From IMG/VR virus record IMGVR_UViG_3300050821_007134, positions 107,074 through 171,073 of that record: 64,000 nucleotides of DNA; one strand, 5' to 3'. Numbering within the stretch: the stretch's first letter is position 1; each line of letters starts with the position of its first letter. Made by a program: the position numbers and the translations under genes. The notes under the pieces are model-generated. The model was not told the DNA's origin, ran no database searches, and was given only the letters and a program-made list of their open reading frames with translations. Of the stretch, positions 2,673-45,479 are shown in pieces. This DNA comes from a virus.

Positions 2673-2691
2673 CTTGTGTCCTCCTGTTTCT

Positions 2692-2729
2692 CGCTTTGTA
2701 TATATCACAACTCCATGATATACAAAGCG
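2692..2729. promoter_or_regulatory. symmetrical bidirectional sigma-70-like promoter
   Basis: An 11-bp perfect inverted repeat, CGCTTTGTATA (2692-2702) and TATACAAAGCG (2719-2729), separated by 16 bp. Read rightward it gives TTGTAT (2696-2701), a 17-bp spacer and TATACA (2719-2724). Read leftward it gives the same boxes, TTGTAT (2725-2720), a 17-bp spacer and TATACA (2702-2697). The two promoters fully overlap and should compete. The predicted rightward start falls at about 2731, the helicase ATG. The leftward start falls near 2690, leaving about 18 nt of leader with the groEL SD. The palindrome could also be an operator for a dimeric regulator. Confidence 0.65.
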
Positions 2730-2730
2730 T

Positions 2731-8459: not shown

Positions 8460-8491
8460 ACTTTAAAGAACTTTTTAGGAAAGAGGAAAAA

Positions 8492-9478
8492 ATGAAAAAT
8501 CTACTGATCGCATTATGTCTTATTTTCGGCGCCCAGGCGTTCGCCGGAGATCAGATCACACTAACTGTGGACAACACAATCGCCATTAACGATGAGTTTG
8601 ACGGACATTCAGTCTCTCAAATCATCAAAAAGGCACGGGAATTGGATGCCAGAATTCCATCTGGAGATGCCCTTTATCTCGTAATCAACAGCCCAGGCGG
8701 CAGCATTGAAGACGGATTGGAACTCATCGAGAACCTTTCTAACCTCAAACGCCCCGTAATCACAATCACCTTATTCTCGGCCAGTATGGGATTCCAGACT
8801 GTACAAGCATTGGGCGAGCGATACATCACAAATATGGGAACCCTCATGTCACACAGAGCAGCCGGTGGATTCTGGGGCCAAATTCCAGGTTCATTAGGAA
8901 CTCGATACGCTTTCTATTTAAGACGCGTACAAAAACTTGACGAAAATGCAGTCAAGCGATCCAAAGGAAAACTTACAATGGCAACTTATGCCACTCTCAT
9001 TCAGGATGAATACTGGTGTGAAGGCCAAGACTGTATCGACAAAGGTCTAGCCGATAAAATCGTATCTCCTCAGTGCGACAAGAGTTTGACTGGGACAACG
9101 AGTGTTTCAATTTTCCAAGCTCTTATGGGCGCGGTAGTTGAAATTTTCGCAGACTATGATAACTGTCCACTTAACACTAACGTCTTGAAGTACACCCTTT
9201 TGGTGAACGGCGAACCACTCTTTAAAGACGGCGTCAGCATCGAAGAACTTCACAGACTTTTGGGCCAAAAAGAACAGAAAGAAAAAGAAGCGGCTAAAGC
9301 CAAAGAATCCTCTGGTATTTTCAGCTCTTCTTACTTTTCGTCATCTAGCTATGACTATTCTTCTTCTCCCAAGACTCCCATTGATTCTCTGACCAAAGAG
9401 CAAATCCTTGAGATCTGGACCAAGTATCAAGAAGTTAAGAAAAAGAAAGAAAACCGCGACGTTATCAAAGGTTACTAA
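8492..9478 (+). CDS. exported ClpP/SppA-like serine protease
   Basis: A 328-aa protein starting at the ATG at 8492, preceded by AGGAAAGAGG. A TTG at 8456 overlapping the upstream stop would add 12 residues before the signal peptide and is less likely. A typical Sec signal (MKNLLIALCLIFGAQAFA, cleavage after residue 18) leads into a ClpP fold: LYLVINSPGGS near 61-71, FSASMG with nucleophile Ser98, and LMSHRAAGG with His121. The third member probably lies in the WCEGQDCIDKGLADKIV region. Export suggests action in the periplasm, like SppA- or NfeD-associated ClpP-class proteases. A Ser-rich stretch (SSSYFSSSSYDYSSS) precedes a lysine-rich C-terminus. A second, cytoplasmic ClpP-like protein is encoded at 37319-37927. 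Confidence 0.85.
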   Translation: MKNLLIALCLIFGAQAFAGDQITLTVDNTIAINDEFDGHSVSQIIKKARELDARIPSGDALYLVINSPGGSIEDGLELIENLSNLKRPVITITLFSASMGFQTVQALGERYITNMGTLMSHRAAGGFWGQIPGSLGTRYAFYLRRVQKLDENAVKRSKGKLTMATYATLIQDEYWCEGQDCIDKGLADKIVSPQCDKSLTGTTSVSIFQALMGAVVEIFADYDNCPLNTNVLKYTLLVNGEPLFKDGVSIEELHRLLGQKEQKEKEAAKAKESSGIFSSSYFSSSSYDYSSSPKTPIDSLTKEQILEIWTKYQEVKKKKENRDVIKGY

Positions 9479-24800: not shown

Positions 24801-25580
24801 TCAAAACTCGGTATCATTCGCGGTATCGGCGAGAAAACAATCGAGCCGATCGTTTCAAACAGACCATATAAAGACATTCAAGATTTCGTCGACAAAGACG
24901 TTGCAGGTCCAAGCTTATCTCATAAGTTGATTCACGTAGGAGTATTGGATAGCCTTTTTCCCTCTACAGCTAATTTGATTGAAAAATTAAAGCTTTTCGA
25001 GGAAGCCCGCGAGCTGCGAGAATATCGAGATAGGGTAAAAGAAGCACAAGAAAAAGGGAAAACTGTCCGAGCGACCGGACCCAGACAAGCTCAGATTCCC
25101 GAGGATTATCAAAACTTAAGCCCCATAAAAGAAGCGGCCATGAAGAAGTCTGTTCTTACAAGTTTGCCAATCGACCTACACTCTTTGGGCGCCAAATATT
25201 CTAAAGTCATCATGCCATATGTCAATAGGCCTACAGTTATGAGTCCTCGCGGATTCGAAACACTTTTAATCAATGGAGCACAGCTAGATAGACTCGAACA
25301 GGTGCCAGGCGATCAAATCACAAAAAGTGTTTATGTTGCCGCAACATGTTACGTAGTTGAAGCCAAAGAATTTGCATATGCCAAAAATACCAAGAAGGCC
25401 TTGAAGGTAATCATGGACGTAGATGGATTCGTAAGTGAAAAGGTGTTGTGGCCCGATTACAACACTGGCGAACTTATGTATCCGAAAGAATTGAAAAAAG
25501 GCACAATAGCCACAGTGTTCATGAGAAAGAAAGATGGACGAAAAGACATGTCCATCATGGGGATCGTCGTTGAAGGCTAA
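21804..25580 (+). CDS. dnaE: DNA polymerase III alpha subunit (DnaE-type)
   Basis: A 1258-aa replicative polymerase. The GTG at 21804 has GGAG upstream at good spacing; a TTG at 21792 is less likely. The PHP domain begins SPHCHAESPLTG with YTDHGHL, but the site usually reading NDxHY is SDYAYM. Polymerase signatures: GPGRGSAGGS near 440-449, PDVDVD with Asp485 and Asp487, KYDFL with Asp651, plus YSKHASAF, DRPGPID and TIIYQEDLGKIAKQLAGF. Between palm and fingers is an insertion with C697-C700 and C728-C733. The C-terminal ~100 residues look like an OB-fold. No exonuclease domain is present. It is probably the phage replicase, working with the exonuclease at 19838-20470. Confidence 0.95.
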   Translation: MKVSPHCHAESPLTGSTVANLIARAKELGRTHFAYTDHGHLSSVLKAYSLCKPAKKHKLEYMKRGLTFIPGIEIYFKDPSCPITNGTEVARCKYFTLTIHCQDQDAYQELVRIVSRTDMPTIEIYEQTQQLWSWPELERMASKNITVVLGGPHDIVGKAMLAGRADISEKTLLKLNTIFHNKLYVSLICEPWSKKYHSIVKIDYEDGTHDSMFTSDQVQTDKARKMPAGDLLSKRFHSRIEAKTVGGVFNLVGKDIKKVTLHKGFLPMPGGDFMTKVNRLLKALAKKHGIKILVSDYAYMANKEDKIVQTMRLEGNDKLQPNLYMKNEEEILAYLTTIMGIPLEEAQSYLKNNEEWAHSFDRVKLEYPWRLADSGGDALKICMEIIKKNGRMKWDDPTWVSRLREELNIICRNGVYDFTPYFLPIRDVLNHYLENGQLVGPGRGSAGGSLFCYLMGITQIVPFKYDLPFTRFFSKARVVSKKLPDVDVDLEDRELLVGSDGKSGYLYGRWGNKAAQISTRTTIRLKSAIKDTNRYFKGKVEDEIETFTESLPAPPQGVSDLGFVFGFEDDEGNQIEGLIDQNEQLQKYAQDRPEEWEIVSKSMGLVRAYSKHASAFVLSNVPISETLPTKEGYITQYEAKECESAGLIKYDFLVVKQLKDIRICLDLINKKNKEYRAPMSPDDVVGWWHPESDSGVCAKCQNVSETVENLDGQVDLVYRKEARPEHICGNHDCQILFKDVRTGNQVGWFTYQGKKTYIWDLPEEMAVFQAIWGGATETQFQINSRSMTPFVMNILPKNIMDLASILAVDRPGPIDYIIEEKGITMAAEYVERVKGNSTSDIPELLSILPNTYGTIIYQEDLGKIAKQLAGFSDEDAELLRENMAKKKKEELMNMKPLFIKGAAEKLSPEVAEKMWEMMVTFARYGFSIIHAVEYAMITYACMFLKYHYPLEWWAAILTNAEEKEITSQFWPYVKDMVLAPDINLSGDTMVVDYGSATIRSKLGIIRGIGEKTIEPIVSNRPYKDIQDFVDKDVAGPSLSHKLIHVGVLDSLFPSTANLIEKLKLFEEARELREYRDRVKEAQEKGKTVRATGPRQAQIPEDYQNLSPIKEAAMKKSVLTSLPIDLHSLGAKYSKVIMPYVNRPTVMSPRGFETLLINGAQLDRLEQVPGDQITKSVYVAATCYVVEAKEFAYAKNTKKALKVIMDVDGFVSEKVLWPDYNTGELMYPKELKKGTIATVFMRKKDGRKDMSIMGIVVEG

Positions 25581-25594
25581 CTGTATAAAACAAG

Positions 25595-25623
25595 TTGACA
25601 ATTGTGTACCAAAAGGATACATT
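25595..25623 (+). promoter_or_regulatory. sigma-70-like promoter before the subtilisin gene
   Basis: TTGACA (25595-25600), a 17-bp spacer and TACATT (25618-25623) lie in the 49-base gap after dnaE, an unusually wide gap in this operon. The predicted start is about 25630, the ATG of the protease gene. This repeats the geometry of the promoter at 2692-2729, where 6 bases also separate the -10 box from the ATG. Confidence 0.5.
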
Positions 25624-25629
25624 CAAGGA

Positions 25630-26607
25630 ATGAGATGGATAGCGGCAGCACTCCTGACATTGACACCGGCCCTGGGCTTAGCGGGCCAAACCTTTTTACA
25701 AAAACCAATTACTGTCGCAGTGATAGACTCTGGTTTCGGATATAAGGGTTTGGGTCACAATGCAAAACTTTGCAAGTATGGCCACAAAGATTTCTCTATT
25801 GCTCAAGTTTATGATAGTCGATTTAATACATCAGATCCGATCCCCCTGGATGTTTCGGGCCACGGCACAAACGTTGCAGGATTGATTGAAGACTACGCTA
25901 AGGATGCAAATTTCTGTTTGGTCATCATAAAATATGTTAATCATTACAAAAAAGATGATACAAATACAGCACTTATGAAAGCGCTGAAATATGCAGACGA
26001 AATAAAAGTTGACATTATCAATTATAGCGGCGCGAGTATTGGCTACATTCCAGAAGAAGTGACTCTCATCAAAAAATTCATAGATTCTGGAGGGATATTC
26101 ATAACTTCCGCAGGTAACGATAAGAGCGAATTAAACGGAAAAACAAAATATAAAATTTATCCAGCTATGGATGACGACAGAATCATTGTCGTTGGCAGTA
26201 AAAATCCCTTCCCAGTTAAAAATCTATTTGCCTCTGGTGGCGAACTCGAAGAACACGGATGGAAAGTTGAAAATAGAATGCCTGACATCCAAGAAAAATT
26301 AGATAAAAATGGATTTTGTGTTTTAGAGATAGAGGAAGAAGCCAAAGATGTGATACAAGTAGATGACATGAACATTCCAGTTCCTTACAAGTATACGTAC
26401 TATCGAGTTCTCATTAAACATGACGATAAAGTTTTCTTAAAATCTGACTTCTCAAACTGGGGCCAAAGGGTCAATAGATGGGAAATCGGAGATATGCAGA
26501 CCTCGTATGGGATCACATTCAGTGGAACCAGCCAGGCCACCGCTATAGCCACAGGGAAACTTGTGGGTCAACTATACGAAAAGCTTAACAAATTGAGTGA
26601 GAGATGA
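25630..26607 (+). CDS. exported subtilisin-like serine protease (S8)
   Basis: A 325-aa protein. A Sec signal MRWIAAALLTLTPALGLAG occupies residues 1-19. The catalytic triad is complete: VAVIDSG with Asp33, SGHGTNVAG with His78 and SGTSQATA with Ser301. The oxyanion Asn is N164 in TSAGNDK. There is no obvious inhibitory propeptide between the signal and the catalytic domain, and a ~90-residue insertion (ELEEHGWKVEN to FSNWGQ) sits before the Ser motif. The 25630 start is chosen for the signal peptide; an earlier frame from 25534 overlaps dnaE. It should act in the periplasm or outside the cell, possibly in lysis or superinfection control. Confidence 0.88.
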   Translation: MRWIAAALLTLTPALGLAGQTFLQKPITVAVIDSGFGYKGLGHNAKLCKYGHKDFSIAQVYDSRFNTSDPIPLDVSGHGTNVAGLIEDYAKDANFCLVIIKYVNHYKKDDTNTALMKALKYADEIKVDIINYSGASIGYIPEEVTLIKKFIDSGGIFITSAGNDKSELNGKTKYKIYPAMDDDRIIVVGSKNPFPVKNLFASGGELEEHGWKVENRMPDIQEKLDKNGFCVLEIEEEAKDVIQVDDMNIPVPYKYTYYRVLIKHDDKVFLKSDFSNWGQRVNRWEIGDMQTSYGITFSGTSQATAIATGKLVGQLYEKLNKLSER

Positions 26608-30506: not shown

Positions 30507-30706
30507 GACAAGATAAGGCATTTCCACAAACTATATCTCTTGATGGCATAAGCAGCACTACAGATGGATTGACCAAAAGAGAATTCTTTGCTGCATTTAT
30601 TTTAAGTGGAAGAATGGCTCATGGTGCTACTTCCCTTGATACTGTGGCAGAAGCAGTAGAATATGCAGATGCTCTAATAGAAAAATTAGGAGAAAAAAAT
30701 GTCTGA
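30503..30706 (+). CDS. 67-aa hypothetical protein
   Basis: The ATG at 30503 overlaps the previous stop (ATGA) with GGAGAG upstream, and is preferred over an ATG 12 bases earlier. Contains GLTKREFFAAFILSGRMAHG followed by a helix (VAEAVEYADALIEKL). The KREYFAAxxLxG...A...A...AD pattern occurs in many small phage proteins of unknown role. Confidence 0.7.
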   Translation: MRQDKAFPQTISLDGISSTTDGLTKREFFAAFILSGRMAHGATSLDTVAEAVEYADALIEKLGEKNV

Positions 30707-31805
30707 CGATAAAAAAATGCCAGGTAATCTGTATACTGAAAAAGATAAAGAAAAGAAACCAGGCAATAAATGGACAAAAATGCTAAGGCAATATGAAGAC
30801 ACCGTCAACTACGATTATGATTCTTTTGCGCCCGAAAATTGTCTTTATTCTCCAAGTCCTTATTACAATTGGATTTTTGCAAATAAGTCAAATGGTGTTC
30901 CCAAGAACGCATCAATCTTAATGTTCTCTGAACAGAAAGCTGGTAAATCACTTTCATGTTATGCATTCATTGACGAGATGCAGCGAAGAGATCCAGAAGG
31001 ACACGCACTTTATTTTAACTCAGAACTCAGAGGACAATTACAGCATGACCTCTTTAAAACTATCGACAAAGAGCGAAATACAATCTACGATACCAATGAC
31101 CCGTCGGAAATTTTTGACCGTATTGAAAATGACATTAAGCCTATGGTTCAAGATGGCTTCCCGCTTAGAATTATAGTCCTAGATTCGCTGACTTCCATCA
31201 TTGGTGTTAAGCGTCAAGATGCGGAAAGTGTGACGAATCACTTGATTGGTGACAAAGCTTTGACTTTACAAATTGGCTTGGAAAAGCTGGTTCCCTTCTG
31301 TAAGCGTAACAAGATATTGCTGATTGCCACGGTTCAAATGCGAGCTAATGTTGGTGACACTTCTTGGCACGCAGAGAAGGATAAGGCAGCCGCACAATGG
31401 GCAACTAAACATGCATTTGAGTACTTTGTAAGTCTTAAACGCGCAGGCGGAGCCGATGATAAAAAAGATCTTGCAGGAATCACCTTTGAAGACGAAGAGT
31501 TACAAGATGCACGCGGTAACAAACTTCTTTTGGGCCACAAAATCTATGCGAAGCTGGAGCAATCTTCTTTAGGTCAGGCCGGACGCGCAGGCGTTTTCAC
31601 GGTTGACTACAAAGAAGGCATTATTAATATTCACGAAGAAGTCTTTCATATGGCAAGTAATACTGGCATTATTAAGAGTGCCGGAGCTTGGTTCACATTC
31701 AAAGACTATAAATGGAACGGCAAAAAAGCAGCGGCCATCGCTATCAAAGAAAACCCTAAGCTTGCCGCAGAGTTACTCGAAGCCGTCAAGAAGCTGGATC
31801 AGTAA
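30699..31805 (+). CDS. uvsX: UvsX/RecA-like recombinase
   Basis: A 368-aa RecA-fold ATPase. Walker A is SEQKAGKSLS (residues 77-86), close to the GxxxxGKS consensus with Glu-Gln-Lys-Ala in the middle. LYFNSE supplies the catalytic Glu region near residue 109, Walker B is IIVLDSL with Asp162, and IATVQMRANVGDTSW gives the loop after strand 5. The protein pairs DNA strands in recombination and recombination-dependent replication, together with the SbcCD-like complex and UvsW-like helicase in the same operon. Overlaps the previous gene by 8 bases. Confidence 0.88.
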   Translation: MSDDKKMPGNLYTEKDKEKKPGNKWTKMLRQYEDTVNYDYDSFAPENCLYSPSPYYNWIFANKSNGVPKNASILMFSEQKAGKSLSCYAFIDEMQRRDPEGHALYFNSELRGQLQHDLFKTIDKERNTIYDTNDPSEIFDRIENDIKPMVQDGFPLRIIVLDSLTSIIGVKRQDAESVTNHLIGDKALTLQIGLEKLVPFCKRNKILLIATVQMRANVGDTSWHAEKDKAAAQWATKHAFEYFVSLKRAGGADDKKDLAGITFEDEELQDARGNKLLLGHKIYAKLEQSSLGQAGRAGVFTVDYKEGIINIHEEVFHMASNTGIIKSAGAWFTFKDYKWNGKKAAAIAIKENPKLAAELLEAVKKLDQ

Positions 31806-32017: not shown

Positions 32018-32029
32018 TCAAGGATGCCA

Positions 32030-32962
32030 ATGAACAACGAAATCACCCGTCCTCTTGCAGACAAGCGTAAGATAAGTTCGCGAAATGAATTTGAATTATG
32101 CTACATGAGACATCAATACTTCAGAAGATCTACATACAATCCATCGGCTGAAGAAATGGCCCCCTACATGGCAATTGTGAAAAAGCGATGTAAACACACA
32201 TTTTTCATTCATGCCGGATTGTTCCAAATGGTCGGCTTTGAAAACGAAGACCTTATAAACATAGGAATGATCCATCTAGTTAGTTTCTTAGGGCTTTTCT
32301 CAATGGAAATGATGCCCGAGAAATATGCAAGCTACGTTGAAAAATTCATGTTAGAAAAGGTCGATCCTCCCAGTGAAGAAGATGTTATGTCCAAAAACAG
32401 AGCTAACTTTACGATCTTTTTAAAGCAACGATTAGAAGAAGTTGTACGGGTTTGCAGACAGAAGGTCCGAAATATCAAGGGTATCCCTTTTGAAGAATTC
32501 CAGCCATTCTATGGTCCTAAGAAGCCGCCAATGGATATCATCCAATTAATGGAAAATCATGAATCTCTTGGCTTTCGTAAGATGGACATTGCCGTATTTA
32601 AGACCATAAGAAGAAGAGCCAAGGCTTATGGAAAGAACGCATTTCGTCATGAAAAGAACTGGTACATAATCGTTCCGCTCAAACATAAGAACCTAGGAAT
32701 GTCAGATTTTTCTGGCGCCGGTCTCGATCCCCGTGATAACATTCACAATATGAATCCAGAAGAAATCTTATTCAGATGCGAAGACGAGAACAAGTGGGAC
32801 CGAAAGCGTGCCGCTTATAAGAGCAAATCCAAAAATGAAAAGGCCGCTTTAATAAGTGAATTCATTGATAAAAATAAAAGCAGTAGAATATTTGCCGATG
32901 AATTAAAGACGGCAAAAAGAACACTTCTTAGGATGATGGGGCCATGGATAGAAAAGATCTAA
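32030..32962 (+). CDS. 310-aa protein, possible sigma-like factor
   Basis: The ATG at 32030 has AAGG at proper spacing; an ATG at 32024 is the alternative. Residues ~65-90 read FENEDLINIGMIHLVSFLGLFSM, similar to the yxxEDLxQEGxLxLxxAlxxFd helix of sigma region 2. NFTIFLKQRLEEVVRVCRQK at ~125-145 resembles the following FSTYLxxRIRxxVxDxxRK helix. A C-terminal KSSRIFADELKTAKRTLLRM helix pair could be an HTH remnant. Similarity is limited, so a different DNA- or RNA polymerase-binding role is possible. Confidence 0.6.
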   Translation: MNNEITRPLADKRKISSRNEFELCYMRHQYFRRSTYNPSAEEMAPYMAIVKKRCKHTFFIHAGLFQMVGFENEDLINIGMIHLVSFLGLFSMEMMPEKYASYVEKFMLEKVDPPSEEDVMSKNRANFTIFLKQRLEEVVRVCRQKVRNIKGIPFEEFQPFYGPKKPPMDIIQLMENHESLGFRKMDIAVFKTIRRRAKAYGKNAFRHEKNWYIIVPLKHKNLGMSDFSGAGLDPRDNIHNMNPEEILFRCEDENKWDRKRAAYKSKSKNEKAALISEFIDKNKSSRIFADELKTAKRTLLRMMGPWIEKI

Positions 32963-33498
32963 GCACAGCTGAGATCGTCCGTTTTTGGTACGCCAAATAC
33001 GAAGGAAGAATTCCTAAGGGCAGGAATAAAGAACAGCTACGCGCAATGCGGGGGCTTATCCAGGAAATGGAAAATTCCGGTATCACTGTCGATGACATCA
33101 AAAGTAACTACACGGCATCTTTAGTAGAAAAGGCAGCCGTACACCAAGGTCCAACCAATGAAAGATTTACTAAAGCAAAAAAAGAGAGTTGGATTCACAA
33201 AGTAAAAGATGATTGGGACGTAGCAGTAAGATCTTACATTTTAGAAAAAGAAGCTATGGCCAAGGCTGTTAGGGATTCTTCCCCGGTGGAAGAAATTCGT
33301 GTTCCCCTCCAATTAGTAATCCCTCCTGAAGAGGATATCGATGAATTGGCTAAAAATGTAAAAGTAGGACCTGAAAGAAAAGTTCAGCCCATCAGACCAG
33401 AAGAAATGTTAAATACTGACACCTTAGATATCGACGTAGAAGAAAATACTCTAATAAACAATGAACTCGAAGAATTTGTGAAGAAGCATGGCGGATGA
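32944..33498 (+). CDS. 184-aa protein upstream of the helicase; possible loader
   Basis: A basic N-terminal half (EIVRFWYAKYEGRIPKGRNK, ERFTKAKKESWIHKVKDDWD) and an acidic C-terminal half (LDIDVEENTLINNELEEFV). It overlaps the DnaB-like helicase gene by 11 bases. Helicase loaders are often encoded directly upstream of the helicase and vary greatly in sequence, so that role is possible, but no ATPase or gp59-type motif is seen. Confidence 0.7.
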   Translation: MDRKDLSTAEIVRFWYAKYEGRIPKGRNKEQLRAMRGLIQEMENSGITVDDIKSNYTASLVEKAAVHQGPTNERFTKAKKESWIHKVKDDWDVAVRSYILEKEAMAKAVRDSSPVEEIRVPLQLVIPPEEDIDELAKNVKVGPERKVQPIRPEEMLNTDTLDIDVEENTLINNELEEFVKKHGG

Positions 33499-34624
33499 AG
33501 TAGAGGATTGGAAATCTGATTTCGAAGAGCGAGCGAAAGCCGAAGATAAGAAAGCAGAAGTCCAGGCCAAAAAGTTAATCATCGATGAAAATCGATACAA
33601 TGTTGAGTTGGCTAGAATTGCCAAAACAGCAGACGAAGCCTCACGCGCAAATAGTACCAATTTCGGCCTAATGTCCCCAGAGGCCATCGCAAAAGTTCAA
33701 ACAGACAATATCGAATACATCATGGCCGCAAGAGGAAAGCTTAATTTCATTACGGCCATATTCAGTAAAGTAGTTCCCTTCTTTAGAAAGAATTTGATCC
33801 TGATCGGAGCAAAGTCGGGCCATGGTAAATCTACGACCGTCGCCAACATTGCCCGTGAAACTCTAAGACAGATTGACCCCACTACTGGCAAGCCCCCGCG
33901 AGTTCTTGTAATCACGAACGAAGAAAAAACTGAAGACGTTTATAACAGGGTTACATGTCTCCTTAAGGGATGGCACTATGTAAACCATGATGAATTCACA
34001 GATGAACAAGTCAAGGCATTTAATGACTTTATTCCAGTACTTAGCAAATATATGAATGTGGTCGATGACAATTACAACAATGTGCCCGGAATGACTACGA
34101 GTCTTGAGGGAGTCTGTCAAATTTTTGACAACATGCTTCGAGATGGAACTTATTATCATGCAGTAATTTTTGACTACTATCAAAACGTTACCTATTCCAA
34201 AGACTTCCCAAGTATGACTGAATTCGAAGTTCAAGCGGCCTTATCCCATAAGCTTGACCAATACAAGAACAGCTATCCAGCCCCAATTGTAGTTATGGCT
34301 CAATGCGATCCTCCGGATGAGGCCAACACCCCTTTTATGTTCCGTATCAAGGGGCGAAAACTCATATTCGCTAAGGCAACATTAGCGATGGAAATGGTGG
34401 CCGAGCCCGAAATGCTCAGAACTCAATGGGAAGTATGGAAGAGTAGATTTACTAATTCAATTGGCAAAAAGTTCTACACTGCTTATGATAAGGGCAAAAT
34501 AACAGTTTATGACGATGAATTCGCTAAGAAGGTAATGGCCATGAAAGAAAACGACATGCATGACGCTACGCTCCTTGGCAATTTAGGTAAAAAACCGGTT
34601 GACGATAAAGGAAAGAAAGAGTAG
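33488..34624 (+). CDS. dnaB: DnaB/gp41-like replicative helicase
   Basis: A 378-aa RecA-fold helicase. Walker A is GAKSGHGKST at 107-116, VLVITNEEKTEDV near 139-151 holds the catalytic Glu, Walker B is VIFDYYQNV with Asp229, and IVVMAQCDPP carries the motif 3 Gln. The ~100-residue N-terminal part is shorter than that of cellular DnaB, as in T4 gp41-type proteins. It would unwind the fork ahead of the DnaE-type polymerase, and the AEP primase is encoded about 2 kb downstream. Confidence 0.82.
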   Translation: MADEVEDWKSDFEERAKAEDKKAEVQAKKLIIDENRYNVELARIAKTADEASRANSTNFGLMSPEAIAKVQTDNIEYIMAARGKLNFITAIFSKVVPFFRKNLILIGAKSGHGKSTTVANIARETLRQIDPTTGKPPRVLVITNEEKTEDVYNRVTCLLKGWHYVNHDEFTDEQVKAFNDFIPVLSKYMNVVDDNYNNVPGMTTSLEGVCQIFDNMLRDGTYYHAVIFDYYQNVTYSKDFPSMTEFEVQAALSHKLDQYKNSYPAPIVVMAQCDPPDEANTPFMFRIKGRKLIFAKATLAMEMVAEPEMLRTQWEVWKSRFTNSIGKKFYTAYDKGKITVYDDEFAKKVMAMKENDMHDATLLGNLGKKPVDDKGKKE

Positions 34625-36248: not shown

Positions 36249-36451
36249 TGAGAATAGAGTACAAAGGGTTCGCACTGGTCGCCAATAGAGAAAAAACAAA
36301 AAATGGAATATACAGAACCTTTTACAGCGCTCAAAACATCGAAACCCGAATGATACTCTCCGAAACTAACGATAACATCAGTATCCAAGACGCAATGGAA
36401 GAACTAAAAACAGACGTAGACACATATTTAAGTGAGACCAATGGAGCATAA
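36248..36451 (+). CDS. 67-aa hypothetical protein
   Basis: Begins MRIEYKGFALVANREKTKNG, with alternating hydrophobic residues suggesting a beta hairpin, and ends in a helix (IQDAMEELKTDVDTYL). GGAGAG lies upstream. It is followed with 1-base overlap by the primase gene. No family is recognised. Confidence 0.65.
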   Translation: MRIEYKGFALVANREKTKNGIYRTFYSAQNIETRMILSETNDNISIQDAMEELKTDVDTYLSETNGA

Positions 36452-37332
36452 TGCACGAACGAGCAATCAAACTCTTAAAAACCATGTTCAGAGACGGGGA
36501 AACTATCTGTGTGTCCGACAGCAAGTATGGGTACCACTCTATCCCGCTTGAGAATGCTTGGAAAGATCCCGTAACTCTTTTTTCGCCAAACCCAGAAATT
36601 AAAATTCAATTTGTAGACAGCGTAAACCTAAATTTAGTTGCGCTCAATCCCATAAAGGGTTTTCGAGAAGATCTCAATTGTACGGCCTTTAGGAACTTCA
36701 TGGTCGAAATGGATATGGGGCCTTTGGCTCAACAGCTCCAATATATCAAAGCCTCGGGAATGCCCTACAGTGCGGTTATATTTTCAGGCAGTAAAAGTTT
36801 GCATTTTTTGATCTCCCTAGATACAGACTTACCAAACGAATCCATTTGGCGTTTATTTGCGGAATGGACGCTTAATATAGTTCCTCTGGCAGACCCACTG
36901 ACCAAGAACCCTAGTAGGTCAATCCGTATCCCGGAATCGTACAGGGAGCCGGATAAACTCCAAAAACTGGTAGAATTCCACGGTCCCGTGAAACTTGATG
37001 ACTTCGCCAACTGGCTCAGGAAGTGGCCATCTGCCAAGCCCGTTGTAAGCGAAAAGAAAAAAATTAAGCCTGGCGAGTTCGACAAGACCAAAGTCAAGGG
37101 ATGGGTCATAAAGGCCCTGGATAAGGGGATTGACCGATCGAAAGGTAGGAACGCGCAATGGTACGCCATTGCTTGCGAATTTGCTTTGGCCGGTTACACG
37201 GAAGATGGTACAATGGCCATATTAGGTGACTACTTCTCGCCTGATAGAGACTTCAAAGAGAGAGAATGGAAAACAACCATAAAGAGCGCTTTCAAGCGTG
37301 TATATGGCAAGGAGCAAAATGAAAAAGGCTAA
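36451..37332 (+). CDS. AEP-type DNA primase
   Basis: A 293-aa archaeo-eukaryotic primase. The catalytic acidic motif is MVEMDMG with Glu86 and Asp88, the SGSKSLHFLISL motif supplies His118, and ADPLTKNPSRSIRIP near 147-161 provides the third acid and the nucleotide-binding Arg. The C-terminal ~75 residues (RNAQWYAIACEFALAGY, FSPDRDFKEREWKTTIKSAF) match a PriCT-like helical domain common in mobile-element primases. It presumably lays primers for the DnaE polymerase. No DnaG/TOPRIM primase is seen in the window, so this is the only primase candidate here. Confidence 0.8.
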   Translation: MHERAIKLLKTMFRDGETICVSDSKYGYHSIPLENAWKDPVTLFSPNPEIKIQFVDSVNLNLVALNPIKGFREDLNCTAFRNFMVEMDMGPLAQQLQYIKASGMPYSAVIFSGSKSLHFLISLDTDLPNESIWRLFAEWTLNIVPLADPLTKNPSRSIRIPESYREPDKLQKLVEFHGPVKLDDFANWLRKWPSAKPVVSEKKKIKPGEFDKTKVKGWVIKALDKGIDRSKGRNAQWYAIACEFALAGYTEDGTMAILGDYFSPDRDFKEREWKTTIKSAFKRVYGKEQNEKG

Positions 37333-37927
37333 TCATGATGATATCGAAAAGTTTCACGATTACAGCATCCATTTGCCCACGCGAACTATTTACAATAGCA
37401 CTGAACACGTAAGCGAATCTGATGATTTCTCCGAGTCAGGTTGCGATACGTCTATGGCCGAACGAATGGTTAAAAACATTCACATTTTGGACCATCTATC
37501 TCAAGAGCCAATCACGATCATCATGAACAACATTGGTGGCGACGAATATCACGGATTCGCTATTTATGATGCTATCAAAGCGGCAAAATCAGAAATCATA
37601 GTAAAAGTTTTCGGCCACGCAATGAGTATGGGTTCAATTATTTTACAAGCTGCCGACAAACGAATCATGTCTCCTACCTCACGACAAATGATTCATTACG
37701 GAACATGGGGTAGAAATGATCATGCTAAGACCAGTCAGAAGTGGGCAGAAGAAGGCCTTAAAATTGATAAGTGGATGGAAAAGATGTACTTAGACAAGAT
37801 CCGCGAGAAGCACCCTGACTTTAAGCTTAAAAGATTGCAAAAATATTTGGACCATGATACGTTCCTGACAGCCGAAGAGAGCGTTGCGTTAGGATTAGCT
37901 GACTCAGTATTGGGAGATGAAGAGTGA
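37319..37927 (+). CDS. ClpP-like serine protease, cytoplasmic
   Basis: A 202-aa ClpP-fold protein. The ATG at 37319 has AAGGAGC upstream. EPITIIMNNIGGDEYHGFAI near 63-82, FGHAMSMGSI with nucleophile Ser103 and MIHYGTWG with His126 match the ClpP catalytic core, and ESVALGLADSVLG holds the usual GL(V/A)D exit. There is no signal peptide, unlike the related protein at 8492-9478. Phage ClpP-like proteins are often prohead proteases, but here the gene sits between primase and unknown genes, so a regulatory or host-targeting role is equally possible. Confidence 0.85.
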   Translation: MKKANHDDIEKFHDYSIHLPTRTIYNSTEHVSESDDFSESGCDTSMAERMVKNIHILDHLSQEPITIIMNNIGGDEYHGFAIYDAIKAAKSEIIVKVFGHAMSMGSIILQAADKRIMSPTSRQMIHYGTWGRNDHAKTSQKWAEEGLKIDKWMEKMYLDKIREKHPDFKLKRLQKYLDHDTFLTAEESVALGLADSVLGDEE

Positions 37928-38235
37928 CCGACGAAGATTCTAAACTGGCCAAAGAGCTTGGCGATCAGATTAAAAAGGGATTAGAGGAACAATTTCTCCG
38001 AAAGCCTAACAGTGAAACTACTAGGCAAAGTGCAATCGCTTACTTACAGGGAATGGTTAACCAATGGATGGAAGAAAATAAAATTGAGCCTGGACCTCTT
38101 CCAATAGTAGATGTTCAAATTGAAGACAGTCAAATGCACGTAAGGTTATTAGATCACGAAACAAAAGAGCCACTAACATGGGGACAGTGGATAGATAAAT
38201 ATTCATACGGAAGGTATTATGGCCGACGAGATTAA
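37924..38235 (+). CDS. 103-aa hypothetical protein
   Basis: A GTG start overlaps the protease stop (GTGA). Helical N-terminus (LAKELGDQIKKGLEEQFLRK) and beta-rich C-terminus (PIVDVQIEDSQMHVRLLDHE) ending WGQWIDKYSYGRYYGRRD. Co-translation with the ClpP-like protein could mean a partner or substrate. No family is recognised. Confidence 0.7.
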   Translation: MTDEDSKLAKELGDQIKKGLEEQFLRKPNSETTRQSAIAYLQGMVNQWMEENKIEPGPLPIVDVQIEDSQMHVRLLDHETKEPLTWGQWIDKYSYGRYYGRRD

Positions 38236-38842
38236 GGAAGAAAAGCTCCCCCCCTTTACGGAATGGGAAACTAAATATCGGACAGAATTGTCCGTATTGC
38301 CCACTTTCCAACGGCTCGCGAAAGCGATTCCCGATCTAAAAGAATTCATTTATGCTTGCGGTCCGGATGAATACAATGTCAGGCCCGATTCTCCTCTTTT
38401 CTTAAGATTCAGAATGGCAGAATATCCTAAGTCAGATCCCATATTTAAGCAGCTCACAATCAAGGGCCGCCCAGTTGGCGCTAAAAATAACATCAAAAGA
38501 AAAGAACCTAATCTCAATGTGAGTGCAAATAGTGCCGAAGAGATTCGTGAATTTATCTCTGAAGCTAATTTCACCTTCAATTTCAAGATCTACAAAGAGT
38601 GTCATATTTACACTTTTGCAGACGCGACAATCGTGTACTACACGGTAAAGGAAGAAGCTGATTCGAAAGAGCATTACTTCATTGAAATCGAAGTCGATGA
38701 AAAAACCATCCACAACTTAACCGAAAAAGAGGCCTGGACAGTCATTGAAAAATATGAGACTATTTTAGCTGAAACAGGTATCACTCCCCAGAAGCGATTG
38801 AGACGTTCACTTTTTGAAATGTTCAAGAAAGACGTAAAGTGA
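38219..38842 (+). CDS. 207-aa protein with CYTH-like segment
   Basis: Residues ~117-195 contain KECHIYTFADATIVYYTVKE, HYFIEIEVDEKTIHNLTEKE and a final RSLFEMF. The FIEIEV strand, a long helix and the closing S-x-F-E-M-F fit the second half of CYTH/triphosphate tunnel proteins (class IV cyclases and thiamine triphosphatases). The first half, where an ExExK motif is expected, is not convincing. It may therefore be a degenerate or circularly arranged member, or a false match. Confidence 0.6.
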   Translation: MADEIKEEKLPPFTEWETKYRTELSVLPTFQRLAKAIPDLKEFIYACGPDEYNVRPDSPLFLRFRMAEYPKSDPIFKQLTIKGRPVGAKNNIKRKEPNLNVSANSAEEIREFISEANFTFNFKIYKECHIYTFADATIVYYTVKEEADSKEHYFIEIEVDEKTIHNLTEKEAWTVIEKYETILAETGITPQKRLRRSLFEMFKKDVK

Positions 38843-39096: not shown

Positions 39097-39250
39097 AAAT
39101 TCTATCATTCTGATTTTATCGCTTGCCCTCGCTTATTCTGCAAGGCATGAGATTGAAGGAGCTATTTTCAATGCTTTCTTTTATCTGTGTGTCCTTACTC
39201 GATCCGAATCATGTTTTGGATTAGTGTGCATGATCTGGAGGGGCTGTTGA
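39089..39250 (+). CDS. 53-aa membrane-type peptide
   Basis: ATG at 39089 overlapping the previous stop by 8 bases, TGA at 39248-39250. Sequence starts MSKNSIILILSLALAYSARH, a hydrophobic helix or signal, then has a second hydrophobic run (AIFNAFFYLCVLTR) and a late SCFGLVCMIWRGC with three Cys. The stop overlaps the TTG start of the next gene, which supports translation. Confidence 0.5.
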   Translation: MSKNSIILILSLALAYSARHEIEGAIFNAFFYLCVLTRSESCFGLVCMIWRGC

Positions 39251-39921
39251 CCAAATGGAAACGTGCCGTTTATCATGCTCCTCCCGCAGACGTACCAGTC
39301 TTGGTGTGTTATGGCAGCGGCCATATGATGGTCTCGTCTGCCACTTATTACAACCAACAAATGAAGGACATGTTCAAGGCTTTAGCTCAAGAGGGTAAAA
39401 TGACACCCGAAATGGCTGAATGTAAAGGATACTTTAAAGAATTCGGCCAAAAAGTCTATCTAGATGACGCCGATGTCTATTGGACAGAACTGCCCGAGCC
39501 TCCCAAAGAAAGCAACACATTAAGCTCTATAACTGAGGAAAAATCTGTGGAAGAAAATGAAGAACAGTCAGGTGGAACTATGACCGTCGAAGAACTGGCC
39601 AAACACTTCGGCGAGAAAACTATCCCAGTTGAAAGAGGCGCTGATGAAATTTATGCCATAGCAGCTAGAGTTAAAAATGCCTGCGTACTACAAGTTGGGG
39701 CCAACCTCACACCAGCCGGTGTAATGCTCTGTAATACATACACCCATACAATCAAAGCTTTCTATGATTTCGCTAAAACTATCAAAGACGAAGATGATCG
39801 CGAGAGACTTAAATCATTCATTATGAGTCAAGAGGGAATGGCCGCCACATTCGTCGGAGCCGCTATGTCCAACGTTAAAGCTCAAGTCGAAGAACAAAGA
39901 AAGAGAGATAAGCAACGATGA
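39247..39921 (+). CDS. 224-aa hypothetical protein
   Basis: The TTG at 39247 is chosen because GGAGGGG lies 4 nt upstream and the codon overlaps the preceding stop as TTGA. Earlier in-frame ATGs (39187, 39211) overlap the 53-aa gene heavily and lack an SD. Contains VPVLVCYGSGHMMVSSATYY, a helical QQMKDMFKALAQEG, an acidic linker (EEKSVEENEEQSGG) and a helical C-terminus (TIKAFYDFAKTIKDEDDRER). No family is recognised. Confidence 0.65.
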   Translation: MTKWKRAVYHAPPADVPVLVCYGSGHMMVSSATYYNQQMKDMFKALAQEGKMTPEMAECKGYFKEFGQKVYLDDADVYWTELPEPPKESNTLSSITEEKSVEENEEQSGGTMTVEELAKHFGEKTIPVERGADEIYAIAARVKNACVLQVGANLTPAGVMLCNTYTHTIKAFYDFAKTIKDEDDRERLKSFIMSQEGMAATFVGAAMSNVKAQVEEQRKRDKQR

Positions 39922-40127: not shown

Positions 40128-40264
40128 AAAAGAAATTACACACATGGTACTTAGCGCCGAATGCAAAAAATGCGTACTGCACAAAATGTGGTTATTTTCC
40201 CGGTCCTCCAATTTTGCGGAAAAATGCTAGAGGCTGTTCTCGTCCTGCGGAAAAGACACAATGA
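40124..40264 (+). CDS. 46-aa basic protein with CxxC
   Basis: Coupled to both neighbours by ATGA overlaps. Encodes MKKKLHTWYLAPNAKNAYCT then KCGYFPGPPILRKNARGC. The pair CTKC plus a later lone Cys may bind metal. The frame fills the gap exactly, which is the main evidence. Unknown function. Confidence 0.55.
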   Translation: MKKKLHTWYLAPNAKNAYCTKCGYFPGPPILRKNARGCSRPAEKTQ

Positions 40265-40512
40265 GCGAGTCTCACTACCTGACTTGTCAGGACGAGAATT
40301 GCGAAAAAGCCTACTGCGTTGCTCGAAGAGATTACGAAGCAAAATTAAGCGGTCTTGAAAGAAAAAATAGAGTTTTGCAGGTCAAAATAGATAATTTAAT
40401 AGTGGGAAATCTTAATGATTTCACAGAGATGGAATTAAAGGTCGTAAAGCATCATAGAGATGAGCTACTAACTGAAATAAAACTATTAAAAAATATATTA
40501 AAGAAGAAATGA
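40261..40512 (+). CDS. 83-aa protein, Cys-containing head and coiled coil
   Basis: The first 20 residues carry three Cys (HYLTCQDENCEKAYCVARRD), followed by a long coiled coil (LSGLERKNRVLQVKIDNLIV, HHRDELLTEIKLLKNILKKK). Possibly a small dimeric zinc protein. No family is recognised. Confidence 0.7.
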   Translation: MSESHYLTCQDENCEKAYCVARRDYEAKLSGLERKNRVLQVKIDNLIVGNLNDFTEMELKVVKHHRDELLTEIKLLKNILKKK

Positions 40513-40513
40513 C

Positions 40514-41503
40514 ATGGAATACAAGCACGACTTTGGTTTTGGCGATACTCGCGGAATTCGCGAAATTATGCTCAAACATGCCCCGTTCCTATCTTTGGGA
40601 CTCATGCCTTGGGAAAACTTCGGTTATCCAGCGCACGACGGGAACCCGCTCTTAAAGGCTGAAATTTCCAAACTTATCAAAAATCTCACAGGGAAAAGTT
40701 ACACTTATGTTTTAGTTACTGTCGGGGCAATGCACGCGATAAATGCCGCTATAGCGGCAATTCGGACCCCTAAAACCAAGTTTTTATACACAAACAAGCT
40801 CTATTTCGGCAGATATCCCGGTTTAGCGGTAAATTCAGGCCTCATTCATATCAAAACTGACAAAATGGGTCCCATGAATGGCGACATCGGAATCATCGAT
40901 TCCCCAAGCAATCCCGAAGGAATTCTGTCAAGCCACGGCAATGGAGACAATATCATCTGGGATGCCGCCTATTATTCGCCGACTTATTGCGGCATTGGTA
41001 ACAGGGACAACTTAAAGTGCTATCCCGTTATACCGAAACATGTGGTAATGGCCGGAAGTCTTAATAAACTAACAGGTGTAAATGGGCTAAGAATCGGATG
41101 GCTTGCGACAAACGACCAAAACATATATGAAAAGGCCCTAGGATACGTTACAAGCAACGTTTTGGGCATAAGCCAGCCTTCGCAGTGGGCCGCCTTACAA
41201 ATCCTCACCAAGGTCAATATGAGCGCTTTTTATGCTGAATCTAAGGCCCTTGTCGACTCCAATAAGACAGAATTGCAAAGACTTGACTATCTGTTCGGTT
41301 ATCAGCCTATACCGCGATGCGGTATGTTTGCCCTATTTGAGGTGGACGAGAAGTTGAGGAAATTGCTAGAAAAAGCATCGGTTCTAACCATGCCTGGGAG
41401 TCAGTGCGGAGATGATCGGGATAGCGTAAGATTTAATCTTGGAAATTCAAACAAAGATACAAAAGCGATGGTAGATGCGATCTTAAAAGCTGATGGTAAG
41501 TAG
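40514..41503 (+). CDS. PLP-dependent aminotransferase-like enzyme (fold type I)
   Basis: A 329-aa protein with the class I/II aminotransferase layout: HDGNPLLKAEISKLI (GxxxLRxAIA-like) near 41-55, IDSPSNPEG with Asn133, IIWDAAYYSP with Asp150 (cofactor pyridine N contact), and GSLNKLTGVNGLRIGW with Lys185 as Schiff-base lysine and Arg193. DSVRFNLGN near the end carries the carboxylate-binding Arg. It is shorter than the usual 350-400 residues but keeps all key residues. Histidinol-phosphate aminotransferase and threonine-phosphate decarboxylase are the nearest types by length and layout. Substrate unknown. It is the last gene of the rightward run. Confidence 0.85.
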   Translation: MEYKHDFGFGDTRGIREIMLKHAPFLSLGLMPWENFGYPAHDGNPLLKAEISKLIKNLTGKSYTYVLVTVGAMHAINAAIAAIRTPKTKFLYTNKLYFGRYPGLAVNSGLIHIKTDKMGPMNGDIGIIDSPSNPEGILSSHGNGDNIIWDAAYYSPTYCGIGNRDNLKCYPVIPKHVVMAGSLNKLTGVNGLRIGWLATNDQNIYEKALGYVTSNVLGISQPSQWAALQILTKVNMSAFYAESKALVDSNKTELQRLDYLFGYQPIPRCGMFALFEVDEKLRKLLEKASVLTMPGSQCGDDRDSVRFNLGNSNKDTKAMVDAILKADGK

Positions 41504-41645: not shown

Positions 41646-44600
41646 TTAGCTAATCGGTATCGCCGAGCTTGAAAAAGAATAAACAGTGCTGCTCGCGAAT
41701 ACCACGTTTCCTAAATCTGGATTCAAATCGCCACCTGTATTACTGTTGAAACCAAAAGTAACATACGAAACGTTCGGTTGAATAGTTACTGCGAATGCCA
41801 CAGAATTTGAATTGTTATGATTCATAGTTCCACAAGATTCGATGGTTCCGTTGATTTTACTTCCCTGAGAGACAAATCCTGGAGGTAACGAAATCTGCGC
41901 TTGCGTTCCTGTGGGAGTTCCAGTTGTCCAGGTTCCCTTAATATGAATTGAATCTGCGCCATCATATTTATACCAGAAAGTTGCTCCAGTAACAGTTCCC
42001 ATTCCAGTAAAAGTTGGCGTATACGCGGTCCAGCTAGATGGACCACTTCCATTACTTAACTGAATTACGGTCCATTCAACAGCATTAACCAGTGTAGTGG
42101 CGCCTAAATTATTTATATGTGCAGTTCCACCAACAGCAGCTAATTCCAGTCTTACTGTTACAGGAGTATTAACTCCAGGAACGTAAATACCAGAAAGTGT
42201 TGTGGGCGTTATTACATCGTTGCCCGTGTTGGTATTATTCATCATGGCTGTACTAATATCTTCAGTTCCGTCGGTTAATTTAACGGCACTGGCGCCATCT
42301 GTAGTGGTATTAAATAATGGAAAAGTAGCGGTTATAAGATAAACCGCATTTGATGTAGGCGGTGTAAAAGTTATTCCGCATACGTTCCCGGCTGCGGCAG
42401 TTAGGTTTATGCCGGATGATTCTCTTATAGTAAGAGCATTCCCGCCAGAATTTGTCGGGTCTACATATGAAGCAGAGGTTGTACTCCAGCCCGATGCGCT
42501 ACCGAAATAAGCTTGAGCGTATGTACCGGCCCCACTGCCATTTCCGCTTCCACTCGCGCCCGCTAATGCACTTAGTGGTTTGGCATATAAGACAGAGTAA
42601 TTAATGGCTTGATCGCCACGATTAGCCCCGCCTACTACTTGAGCAGTGTAAATATGAGTTCCAGCGGGAGGAGAATCTATATATTTAAATGAAGATGCTG
42701 GTATTCCATGAATCTCAATTGCTATGTTATTCTGCATGTACATGAATTGAGAACTTATTAACACGCCATCTCTATAGAAATTAAGAGTTGCAGAACTATC
42801 GGTTGGAGTAGAATCTGTAATAATATAGCTTGGATTTGAAGATCCATCGGCCTGAAATCCAACTTCAACATCTCCACCGTTAGTAGTAACGACTGCCCTA
42901 ACGGGATTTACGCCACCGCTATCGAGAACTGGAATTAGAGTATTCGAGAAACCGAAGACGCCTGTAGAATTTGATTTAGCTATATTTGAAATGCCATCAA
43001 GTTGTCCGCCGTATAGACCTACGATTGGAACAGAGAAATCGAATGCTACCGTATCACTCGTATTGAACATGTTATTTGAATTATTTTTCTCTAAATTATT
43101 AGCGCTTGTTTTATAAGAGAAAAATATTTGATTTGTAGTCGCGCCGTCCGTAAATAAAATGGGCGCATCCGCGTTAGTTATGTTAGGAACAGATCCATTT
43201 TGCGATAACTGTTGAGACCATCCTACTGATTGGGTGTATGTTGTTGGAAGTTTAGTAAAATCTATTACGTAGCCAGTTGGCAACTGAATGTATGCGGTTG
43301 TAGCACTTACGGTTCCGCACTGAAATTGTCCTCTGACCTGAATAGAATCACCAATAACCCTATATTCTATTTCAGAATTAGTTACCGTGCCAAAACCAGG
43401 GGAAGGAGTAAAAGTTAAACTATCACTCCATGGGGTTAAAGGACTTTGAAACTGTCCGCTTAAGCCGATACCTTCGGCGAACATGTAAAAAGGATTACGT
43501 TCACTAGCATCTAAATATACGCCAGATCCACCATTAACTTGACCCTGAATATCAAAAACATAAGTTGTTCCGGCATTTAAAGAATAGACAGACTGTATAA
43601 ATTCATTTGAAACAGTGGGAGGAGTTCCAGCATAAAGAACTGCCTGAGATTCTTGTAATAACGTTGCTCCGCCAGAAGTGTTAAAAACTCTAGCGCCAGC
43701 TATACTATTTGAACCCTGATTATTTAATGGAACGGCGGTATAAACTTTATAAATTCCACTAATTGTGGGAGTAAATGAAAAAGCAGGACTATTATTAAAA
43801 GTTACGAATGAAGTAGAGGCGTTTAAGGTACTAAGAGTTGATACCGCGCTCGAAGCAAAATATGCAAATGCGCTACCTGTTGTTCTACCATTTGGACCCA
43901 TTAAAGCATTGTTAAGCGCGACAGAATATATCCATAAAGTTGTGAGAGCGTTATATACAGTACTGGATTGAGAATTCCAGGTTACTACATCTCCCGCTTT
44001 TAAATTGCCTAGATGTATTTCAGCGGCAGCAATATCACCATTTCGGCCACTTGTATCGAAGAAATAAGTTGTTGCGCCTGCATTTATCGCGCCATTTACG
44101 AAAGGTATGGCAATAATTCCACCAGAAGAAGACTGCGCTGAAAACCCTACTACATAGTCCCCGGCATATGGAACTGTATATTGCCCAGTTGCAGGATTAT
44201 AACCCGAGTTTGAATCGTAAGATACGTTACCTAAAATTATTGTTCCCGAACCAGAGAAAGATCCATAGGCTTTCATTTTTACTGGAAAGTTTTGACTTGT
44301 TAAACTTAAGCCGATACCTTCGGCGTACATATAAAATTGTGCAACATCGCCTCTAATAAAGGCATTCGGTCCACTTCCGGTAACTGCTCCTTGTACGTCG
44401 AAAACGTAAGGGGTACCGGCAACCAATTGATAGGTTGATTGGCAATAGGCACTGTTAACCGTTGCTGGGCTGTCAGAATATGCAACGCCCTGACTCTCGC
44501 TTAATAAAGTTGCACCGCCAGATGTGTTAAAAATTTTACAAACTGCTTCTTGGGTCGAAGAGTTAGTTTCTAATGGAACGCTCGCATATATTTTGTAAAT

Positions 44601-45479
44601 ACCGCTTATGACTGGAGTAAATGTGAACGCTGGACTATTGCTGAAAGTAGTAAATGTTGGAGCGACACTTGCTACTGGACTAGATATTGTATTAACGACA
44701 TTAGAAGTAAAAAGTGCGAATGAACTGCCGCCAGTATTTAGACTTCCATTTAATCCAATTCCTTCTGCGAACATGTAGAAAGGCGTAGGGCTTAATGTAA
44801 GCGTACCACTAGATGCGACCATTCCTTGAATGTCGAAAACGTAAGTATTTCCAGCTATTAAAGTGTAAGTAGATTGAGCATATCCACTAAATCCCGGATC
44901 AGTAACTCCGGCTTTGAACCCAATGGCCAATACTTGAGATTCAGCTAGTAAAGTGGCACCGCCGCTTGTATTAAAAATTCTTCCATAAAAAGGTACGTTA
45001 TCTCCTGGACCTGGAACCAAAGGAAGGGACGCATAAACTTTATACGTTCCGGTGATCGTTGGAGTAATCGTAAAAGCAGGACTCGTGCTAAATGTTTGAA
45101 ACGTTCCTACTGATCCACTAATTGCCGAGCCAGTAACTACTTGCGAAGATTGATAAGTTGCAAACGCAGAACTTCCAGAAGAAAGAAGTGGAGTCTCGAC
45201 ACCAGCAGAATTCAAAATATATGGAATGTTATCATTTTTGAAATAAAAAGAATTACTTCCAGATGGTGGATTCGCAGGAGTGGAAATTTGAGTTAGGGTT
45301 ATGGGATTTGGAGTGCTGCTACCTGATCCTGGAATTGAAACCCAGACGCCATTTACATACCCTCTAAAAGTATTTAATCCAGTGTCATAATAGATATCTC
45401 CATTCCTAGGATTAGCAGGAGCGGTTGGCAACGAGCCAAGATTTATTCCATTTTTGACATACTGAAAGTTATCAGACAT
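41646..45479 (-). CDS. modular tail fibre/adhesin protein, 1277 aa
   Basis: AAGGCGG precedes the ATG. An N-terminal module (VKNGINLGSLPTAPANP, NGDIYYDTGLNTFRGY) is shared with the next two fibre proteins. A ~140-residue repeat occurs three times (about 105-245, 252-393, 536-675), each with SPAF(T/S)xTPxI(T/S)GxYKVY, IFNTSGGATLL, Q-S-x-Y-x-L-x-AG-x-x-YVFD(I/V)QG and F/Y-AEGIGL. Between copies two and three is a C1q/TNF-like domain (395-520). A KSNSTG...YRDG...PPAGTHxYT module lies near 835-970, and a GTVTxxxxxYxxxGDSIxIxG module occurs at ~697-830 and again at the C-terminus. Such repeats are typical of receptor-binding or decorating fibres. Confidence 0.85.
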   Translation of the reverse strand: MSDNFQYVKNGINLGSLPTAPANPRNGDIYYDTGLNTFRGYVNGVWVSIPGSGSSTPNPITLTQISTPANPPSGSNSFYFKNDNIPYILNSAGVETPLLSSGSSAFATYQSSQVVTGSAISGSVGTFQTFSTSPAFTITPTITGTYKVYASLPLVPGPGDNVPFYGRIFNTSGGATLLAESQVLAIGFKAGVTDPGFSGYAQSTYTLIAGNTYVFDIQGMVASSGTLTLSPTPFYMFAEGIGLNGSLNTGGSSFALFTSNVVNTISSPVASVAPTFTTFSNSPAFTFTPVISGIYKIYASVPLETNSSTQEAVCKIFNTSGGATLLSESQGVAYSDSPATVNSAYCQSTYQLVAGTPYVFDVQGAVTGSGPNAFIRGDVAQFYMYAEGIGLSLTSQNFPVKMKAYGSFSGSGTIILGNVSYDSNSGYNPATGQYTVPYAGDYVVGFSAQSSSGGIIAIPFVNGAINAGATTYFFDTSGRNGDIAAAEIHLGNLKAGDVVTWNSQSSTVYNALTTLWIYSVALNNALMGPNGRTTGSAFAYFASSAVSTLSTLNASTSFVTFNNSPAFSFTPTISGIYKVYTAVPLNNQGSNSIAGARVFNTSGGATLLQESQAVLYAGTPPTVSNEFIQSVYSLNAGTTYVFDIQGQVNGGSGVYLDASERNPFYMFAEGIGLSGQFQSPLTPWSDSLTFTPSPGFGTVTNSEIEYRVIGDSIQVRGQFQCGTVSATTAYIQLPTGYVIDFTKLPTTYTQSVGWSQQLSQNGSVPNITNADAPILFTDGATTNQIFFSYKTSANNLEKNNSNNMFNTSDTVAFDFSVPIVGLYGGQLDGISNIAKSNSTGVFGFSNTLIPVLDSGGVNPVRAVVTTNGGDVEVGFQADGSSNPSYIITDSTPTDSSATLNFYRDGVLISSQFMYMQNNIAIEIHGIPASSFKYIDSPPAGTHIYTAQVVGGANRGDQAINYSVLYAKPLSALAGASGSGNGSGAGTYAQAYFGSASGWSTTSASYVDPTNSGGNALTIRESSGINLTAAAGNVCGITFTPPTSNAVYLITATFPLFNTTTDGASAVKLTDGTEDISTAMMNNTNTGNDVITPTTLSGIYVPGVNTPVTVRLELAAVGGTAHINNLGATTLVNAVEWTVIQLSNGSGPSSWTAYTPTFTGMGTVTGATFWYKYDGADSIHIKGTWTTGTPTGTQAQISLPPGFVSQGSKINGTIESCGTMNHNNSNSVAFAVTIQPNVSYVTFGFNSNTGGDLNPDLGNVVFASSTVYSFSSSAIPIS
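43455..45165 (-). repeat. three ~420-bp repeat units in the tail fibre gene
   Basis: Three units encode the same ~140-aa domain, at about 45165-44745, 44722-44300 and 43870-43455. Conserved cores include FNTSGGATLL and the ending AEGIGL. The DNA has diverged enough that the units are not simple tandem copies. Confidence 0.7.

Follow-up and report, generated by a model that had tools for sequence, protein, structure and literature searches.

Why does a phage replication operon end in a gene for a pyridoxal 5'-phosphate (PLP) enzyme, and what does this enzyme do? We analyzed such a gene at positions 40514-41503 (plus strand) of a 64,000-nucleotide stretch of viral DNA, hereafter the window, which covers positions 107074-171073 of IMG/VR virus record IMGVR_UViG_3300050821_007134 (171,073 bases). 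The open reading frame (ORF) is complete, begins with ATG, encodes 329 amino acids and has no internal stop. The gene is under purifying selection (proportion of nonsynonymous differences, pN, 0.15 to 0.28; synonymous sites saturated), which, together with a Pfam E value of 2.5e-20, excludes a chance ORF. An earlier note on this DNA had described an intact aminotransferase-type PLP enzyme closing a phage replication operon, and this was borne out by the ORF and by an operon order that is conserved in approximately 18 loci. We conclude that the gene encodes an intact PLP enzyme of fold type I in which every cofactor residue is present, and comparisons of sequence and predicted fold assign it to the clade of the plant tryptophan aminotransferases and alliinases.

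The PLP-binding lysine is K185, and the cofactor is surrounded by N133, D150, Y153, S182 and R193. In an alignment of 23 divergent viral homologues, the residues that the earlier note had found in place (K185, D150, N133 and the two arginines, R193 and R306) were indeed invariant, as were Y38, G71, Y153, Y158, G188, G191, G195 and W196. By analogy with aspartate aminotransferase (AspAT), Y38 may contact the phosphate from the second subunit, while R306 would, by homology, bind the alpha-carboxylate of the substrate. An AlphaFold model built from the alignment of viral homologues reached a mean predicted local distance difference test (pLDDT) score of 93.6 and a predicted template modeling (pTM) score of 0.92. 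No close viral structural model for the enzyme was found in BFVD.

When the window protein was compared to the PDB at a threshold of 1e-3, the sole matches were garlic alliin lyase and the L-tryptophan aminotransferase TAA1 of Arabidopsis. In line with this, Pfam assigned it to Alliinase_C (PF04864; 73.2 bits, cut-off 22) and also to Aminotran_1_2 (PF00155), and a fold search placed TAA1 first and alliinase second, followed by kynurenine and aspartate aminotransferases and GntC. Among solved proteins, TAA1 (156 bits) and alliinase (122 bits) scored highest with the family profile, ahead of the next match at 77 bits. Ten other phage members were tested, and all exceeded the PF04864 cut-off (35 to 204 bits), the best covering 360 of the 363 positions; three single phage members searched at 1e-5 in the PDB returned TAA1/alliinase and nothing else. 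BLAST of TAA1 against the ORFs of TAA-like phages yielded E values down to 6e-43, and another member showed 37% identity over 253 residues. Of the cofactor-site residues of TAA1, K217, N168, D191, Y194 and R225 were retained by the window protein and by each of the 41 phage rows of the alignment, and R363 by the window protein and by 40 of 41 rows (the remaining row has a gap). Furthermore, TAA1 G220 was present in 41/41 and W228 in 39/41 phage rows, while two AspATs have S/A and Y at these positions. This kinship between phage enzymes and plant TAA1/alliinase seems not to have been reported before; a literature search for alliinase together with phage returned nothing relevant.

The earlier note had missed TAA1/alliinase as the closest family and had instead framed the enzyme by HisC and CobD, which share its fold superfamily. 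Both identities were rejected: the HisC model TIGR01141 scored 28.2 bits (cut-off 276.55) and the model for the threonine-phosphate decarboxylase CobD, TIGR01140, 24.5 bits (cut-off 290.55), and no his or cob pathway gene was seen. The best NCBIfam match by E value was the (S)-gamma-hydroxyarginine cyclodehydratase GntC (PDB 8fft; NF041364), an enzyme of the same fold. It was also rejected, at 65 bits versus a cut-off of 415; the GntC model is unspecific, with ordinary bacterial aminotransferases exceeding 300 bits.

The enzyme had also been called rare in phages. This applies to the 50,697 named phage records, in which the window enzyme had no match at 1e-5 and in which the TAA-like phage enzymes and TAA1 likewise had no relative, but it does not apply to uncultivated phages. 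A first search, with the window protein alone, gave no relative in named phages, viral contigs or genome contigs. An alignment with four plasmid-borne aminotransferases was then used as a profile against the viral collection and yielded 20 loci, down to 25% identity; a refined profile yielded 28, and a search for a TAA-like motif 26 stretches. Some of these matches duplicate a virus already counted, and at least one (L053) is a general aminotransferase by tree. There were also three very weak matches in fecal phages; one of them, L011, was included in the trees and grouped with cellular aminotransferases.

Seven genomes that carry the PLP gene have 24 gene families in common, including GroEL, capsid, tail sheath and the PLP gene, but they had been picked for this gene and are a biased sample. 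A second set, meant to escape this bias, was collected via the capsid protein (130 contigs), and its long contigs were tested. Exactly one enzyme of the family was present in 23 of 31 long capsid-positive contigs, the window included. The PLP enzyme is shown by these data to be a near-core yet dispensable gene in a family of uncultivated myoviruses related to Myxococcus phage Mx1, and it is no stray acquisition. In one genome (G021) the operon is kept to its end and only the PLP gene is missing. Another gene of the aspartate aminotransferase type was sought as a replacement in six PLP-negative genomes, and none was found. The phage-encoded GroEL gene, located at 900-2768 (minus strand) in the window, was present in 17/17 family genomes compared.

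What reaction would such an enzyme catalyze? We consider it roughly 60% probable that it is a functional PLP-dependent enzyme of fold type I, belonging to the tryptophan aminotransferase/alliinase clade, and that it transaminates a free amino acid on its own. A homodimer would bind PLP at K185, R306 would hold the alpha-carboxylate, and the amino group of the free amino acid, which is most likely aromatic or large and hydrophobic, would be transferred to a 2-oxo acid. The amino acid and keto acid pool of the infected cell would thereby be changed in one step, with no phage-encoded partner. The intact site and R306 together favor a free alpha-amino acid as substrate, and TAA1 and TAR1 are aromatic aminotransferases of broad, promiscuous specificity (PMC9309667). 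The phage enzymes suggest a metabolic step that needs one gene only and that selection maintains in a widespread phage family.

A different role, also put forward in the earlier note, is the supply of an amino-acid-derived group for hypermodification of the virion DNA. The position of the gene in a replication operon and the presence of thymidylate-kinase-type and MazG-type genes in the record are compatible with it. However, a homologue of thymidylate synthase/hydroxymethylase (PF00303) was detected in 0 of 15 family genomes (some possibly fragments), while the same search was positive in 9 of 14 controls. Furthermore, no gene family strictly co-occurs with the PLP gene across the family genomes compared, and the near relative that lacks this gene alone keeps the rest of the operon. 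Since there is neither a co-occurring gene nor a thymidylate synthase homologue, we favor a stand-alone metabolic step, and DNA hypermodification is a very improbable role that no longer serves as the lead. As separate observations, the region 1-100000 of genome G000 (loci L002-L006) contains genes of an RNA-repair-type set (a HAD_SAK_2 domain, a Thg1-type guanylyltransferase and two RNA ligases) as well as MazG, thymidylate-kinase and CTP_transf_like domains and DUF1643.

Several observations weigh against transamination of a free amino acid as the role of the gene. The gene can be missing (8 of the 31 long capsid-positive contigs), and Mx1, unlike the window virus, has no enzyme of this family. 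TAA1 residues W196 and H221, which in the sequence are close to the cofactor residues, are conserved only in the TAA-like phages (23/23 and 21/23 members, respectively); the sub-clade of the window lacks them, and the window protein has S155 and V189 instead. It also has M73 at the position of TAA1 T101, a residue of the PLP pocket that is important for activity (PMC6997161). Because of these three substitutions, the substrate of TAA1, tryptophan, cannot be assumed for the window enzyme. Finally, the clade also contains alliinase, a C-S lyase, and homology alone would therefore not fix the reaction type.

The last point leads to an alternative in which the enzyme is a PLP-dependent beta-lyase of the alliinase/C-S lyase type that acts on a cysteine- or sulfoxide-type substrate, for example in sulfur mobilization or in the release of a reactive product. 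Alliinase belongs to the same clade and ranks second among the solved proteins matched by the family; it is outscored by TAA1, and its EGF-like N-terminal domain is absent from the window protein. The catalytic residues fail to separate a transaminase from a lyase reaction. We regard the lyase as unlikely, and transamination is judged to be the most likely reaction. The closest known function, conversion of tryptophan to indole-3-pyruvate by TAA1, would also be in line with production of a signaling or effector metabolite, such as this auxin precursor, with effects on the host or on the plants, algae or microbes associated with it. The absence of the TAA1 W196 and H221 equivalents from the window sub-clade speaks against such a role, and no YUCCA-type gene was seen in Pfam scans covering part of the genome; we find it improbable.

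In the window, the PLP gene is the last gene of the conserved replication operon. Its start codon lies 1 nt past the stop of a small ORF of 83 amino acids (40261-40512, plus strand), and the two are probably translationally coupled. Upstream on the same strand are genes for a UvsX/RecA-like recombinase (30699-31805; PHROG match), a conserved operon protein with no assigned function that recurs in related loci and has no Pfam family (32024-32962), a DnaB-like replicative helicase (33488-34624; PHROG match), a DNA primase-like protein (36451-37332; phrog_2597) and a serine protease of the ClpP/head maturation protease type (37298-37927; PHROG match). They are followed by a gene for a CYTH-like (triphosphate tunnel) protein (38219-38842) with an ExExK motif and a PDB match (1yem, E=8e-4), and by a conserved 244-amino-acid operon protein, also with no assigned function (39187-39921), found near the PLP gene in approximately 11 loci. 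The CYTH-like gene is a conserved operon gene, present in 16 of 17 family genomes and equally so with or without the PLP gene. It is multicopy in genomes G042 and G028, and Pfam misses the CYTH-like protein of the window when it is searched as a single sequence. The window has two ClpP-type protease genes (8456-9478 and 37298-37927), and the replication region also contains a subtilase (peptidase S8) gene at 25534-26607 (plus strand), which is unusual in a phage. The end of the operon is marked by a convergent large structural gene, probably for a tail fiber (41646-45479, minus strand). PADLOC, used to look for a link to defense, gave no match for the PLP gene or for five other window genes.

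This order, comprising the UvsX-like, DnaB-like, primase, ClpP-like and CYTH-like genes, is found again in some 18 related viral loci, with the PLP gene at or near the operon end, and in most family members convergent tail-type genes come after it. In other branches the PLP gene lies elsewhere, for example between a small gene behind GroEL and an SbcC-like nuclease gene; we conclude from the differing positions that it has moved within these genomes. In two loci of other phage lineages (L021, 10052-11470; L079, 8570-9982), the PLP gene comes immediately after a DUF2201 (VWA-like/metallopeptidase) gene, and in L079 an AAA ATPase gene is nearby. An AAA-family ATPase gene (cluster 15) also lies near the PLP gene in several family members (L077, 7813-8802; L071, 8433-9455; L067, 3647-4648).

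Where does this enzyme come from? The careful trees contained the phage copies, two plant sequences (from the PDB alignments and the sole eukaryotes) and 18 to 19 cellular and other outgroup aminotransferases. Phage and plant sequences were split from the outgroups at 100/99 to 100/100. This separation of the phage family from cellular aminotransferases is at odds with a recent host HisC transfer, which the earlier note had considered. Capture of a host HisC/CobD-type or general aspartate-type aminotransferase would account for the shared class I/II aminotransferase fold (PF00155). Besides the trees, the HisC and CobD models, at about one-tenth of their cut-offs, argue against it, and the phage profile, searched against 849 genomes from three phyla, found nothing above approximately 100 bits save phage-like genes. 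At present sampling, host capture is already refuted.

The two plant sequences were nested inside one phage clade (100/99, 100/100), and the clade of the window was sister to it (93/82, 93/76). Forcing the phages together without the plants was worse by 28 log units (approximately unbiased [AU] test, p=3.9e-5), in a test done after the tree was seen and on a tree with long branches. Besides the 849 genomes, the bacterial sampling comprised 395 genomes of one phylum (TAA-like profile), plasmids and a scan across GTDB that was restricted to a single motif. The latter returned two phage-like loci, one in a contig of a Saprospiraceae metagenome-assembled genome (MAG), with the phage operon around the gene, and one in a bog MAG, as well as two weak matches at the level of general aminotransferases. 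A PF04864 search of Bacteroidota returned nothing, as did its controls. The best plasmid match (E=3e-8, Cupriavidus, adjoining a second aminotransferase) was rejected as a relative, being a general aminotransferase by tree.

A tentative reading, which we hold to be possible rather than probable, is that the eukaryotic TAA/alliinase family descends from phage-borne enzymes or has an immediate common ancestor with them, the phages being the prokaryotic reservoir and the plant genes a branch within the phage radiation. It is from the TAA/alliinase family that plants have their main enzyme of auxin synthesis. The origin of TAA is disputed (PMC4754409; PMC5611494; PMC10015382), and a 2022 review called the tryptophan aminotransferase clade almost exclusively plant, with phages and viruses unmentioned (PMC9309667). 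The bacterial and archaeal homologues cited in this debate are only about 25% identical to TAA1, with E values of approximately 1e-8 to 1e-6 (PMC4754409). The phage enzymes (E down to 6e-43, up to 37% identity) are much closer non-eukaryotic relatives, and with them the origin of the family can be tested directly.

Among known systems, Mx1 (OR576727) is the closest cultured relative of the window virus, and it makes Myxococcota a tentative first candidate for the hosts of the family. The two have about 44 proteins in common, including the capsid protein (52% identity), portal (47%), GroEL (43%), tail sheath, PolIII alpha and similar replication genes. A window gene at 4244-5278 (plus strand), with no Pfam match on its own, encodes a homologue of the putative RNA polymerase sigma factor of Mx1 (33% identity). 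At the level of the enzyme, garlic alliin lyase (PDB 1lk9/2hor; PF04864) shares the Pfam domain and the clade with the phage family. It differs in being a C-S lyase with an EGF-like N-terminal domain, while the window protein begins at the first strand of the fold and shows no such domain in Pfam. The plant tryptophan aminotransferases TAA1/TAR (PDB 3bwn/3bwo; PF04864) are longer, at approximately 390 amino acids versus 329. They share with the window enzyme the fold, the PLP site, a KxTGxxGxRxGW-type motif and the equivalents of G220 and W228, and with the sister phage sequences also the YxWPxY and SKxTGHA motifs.
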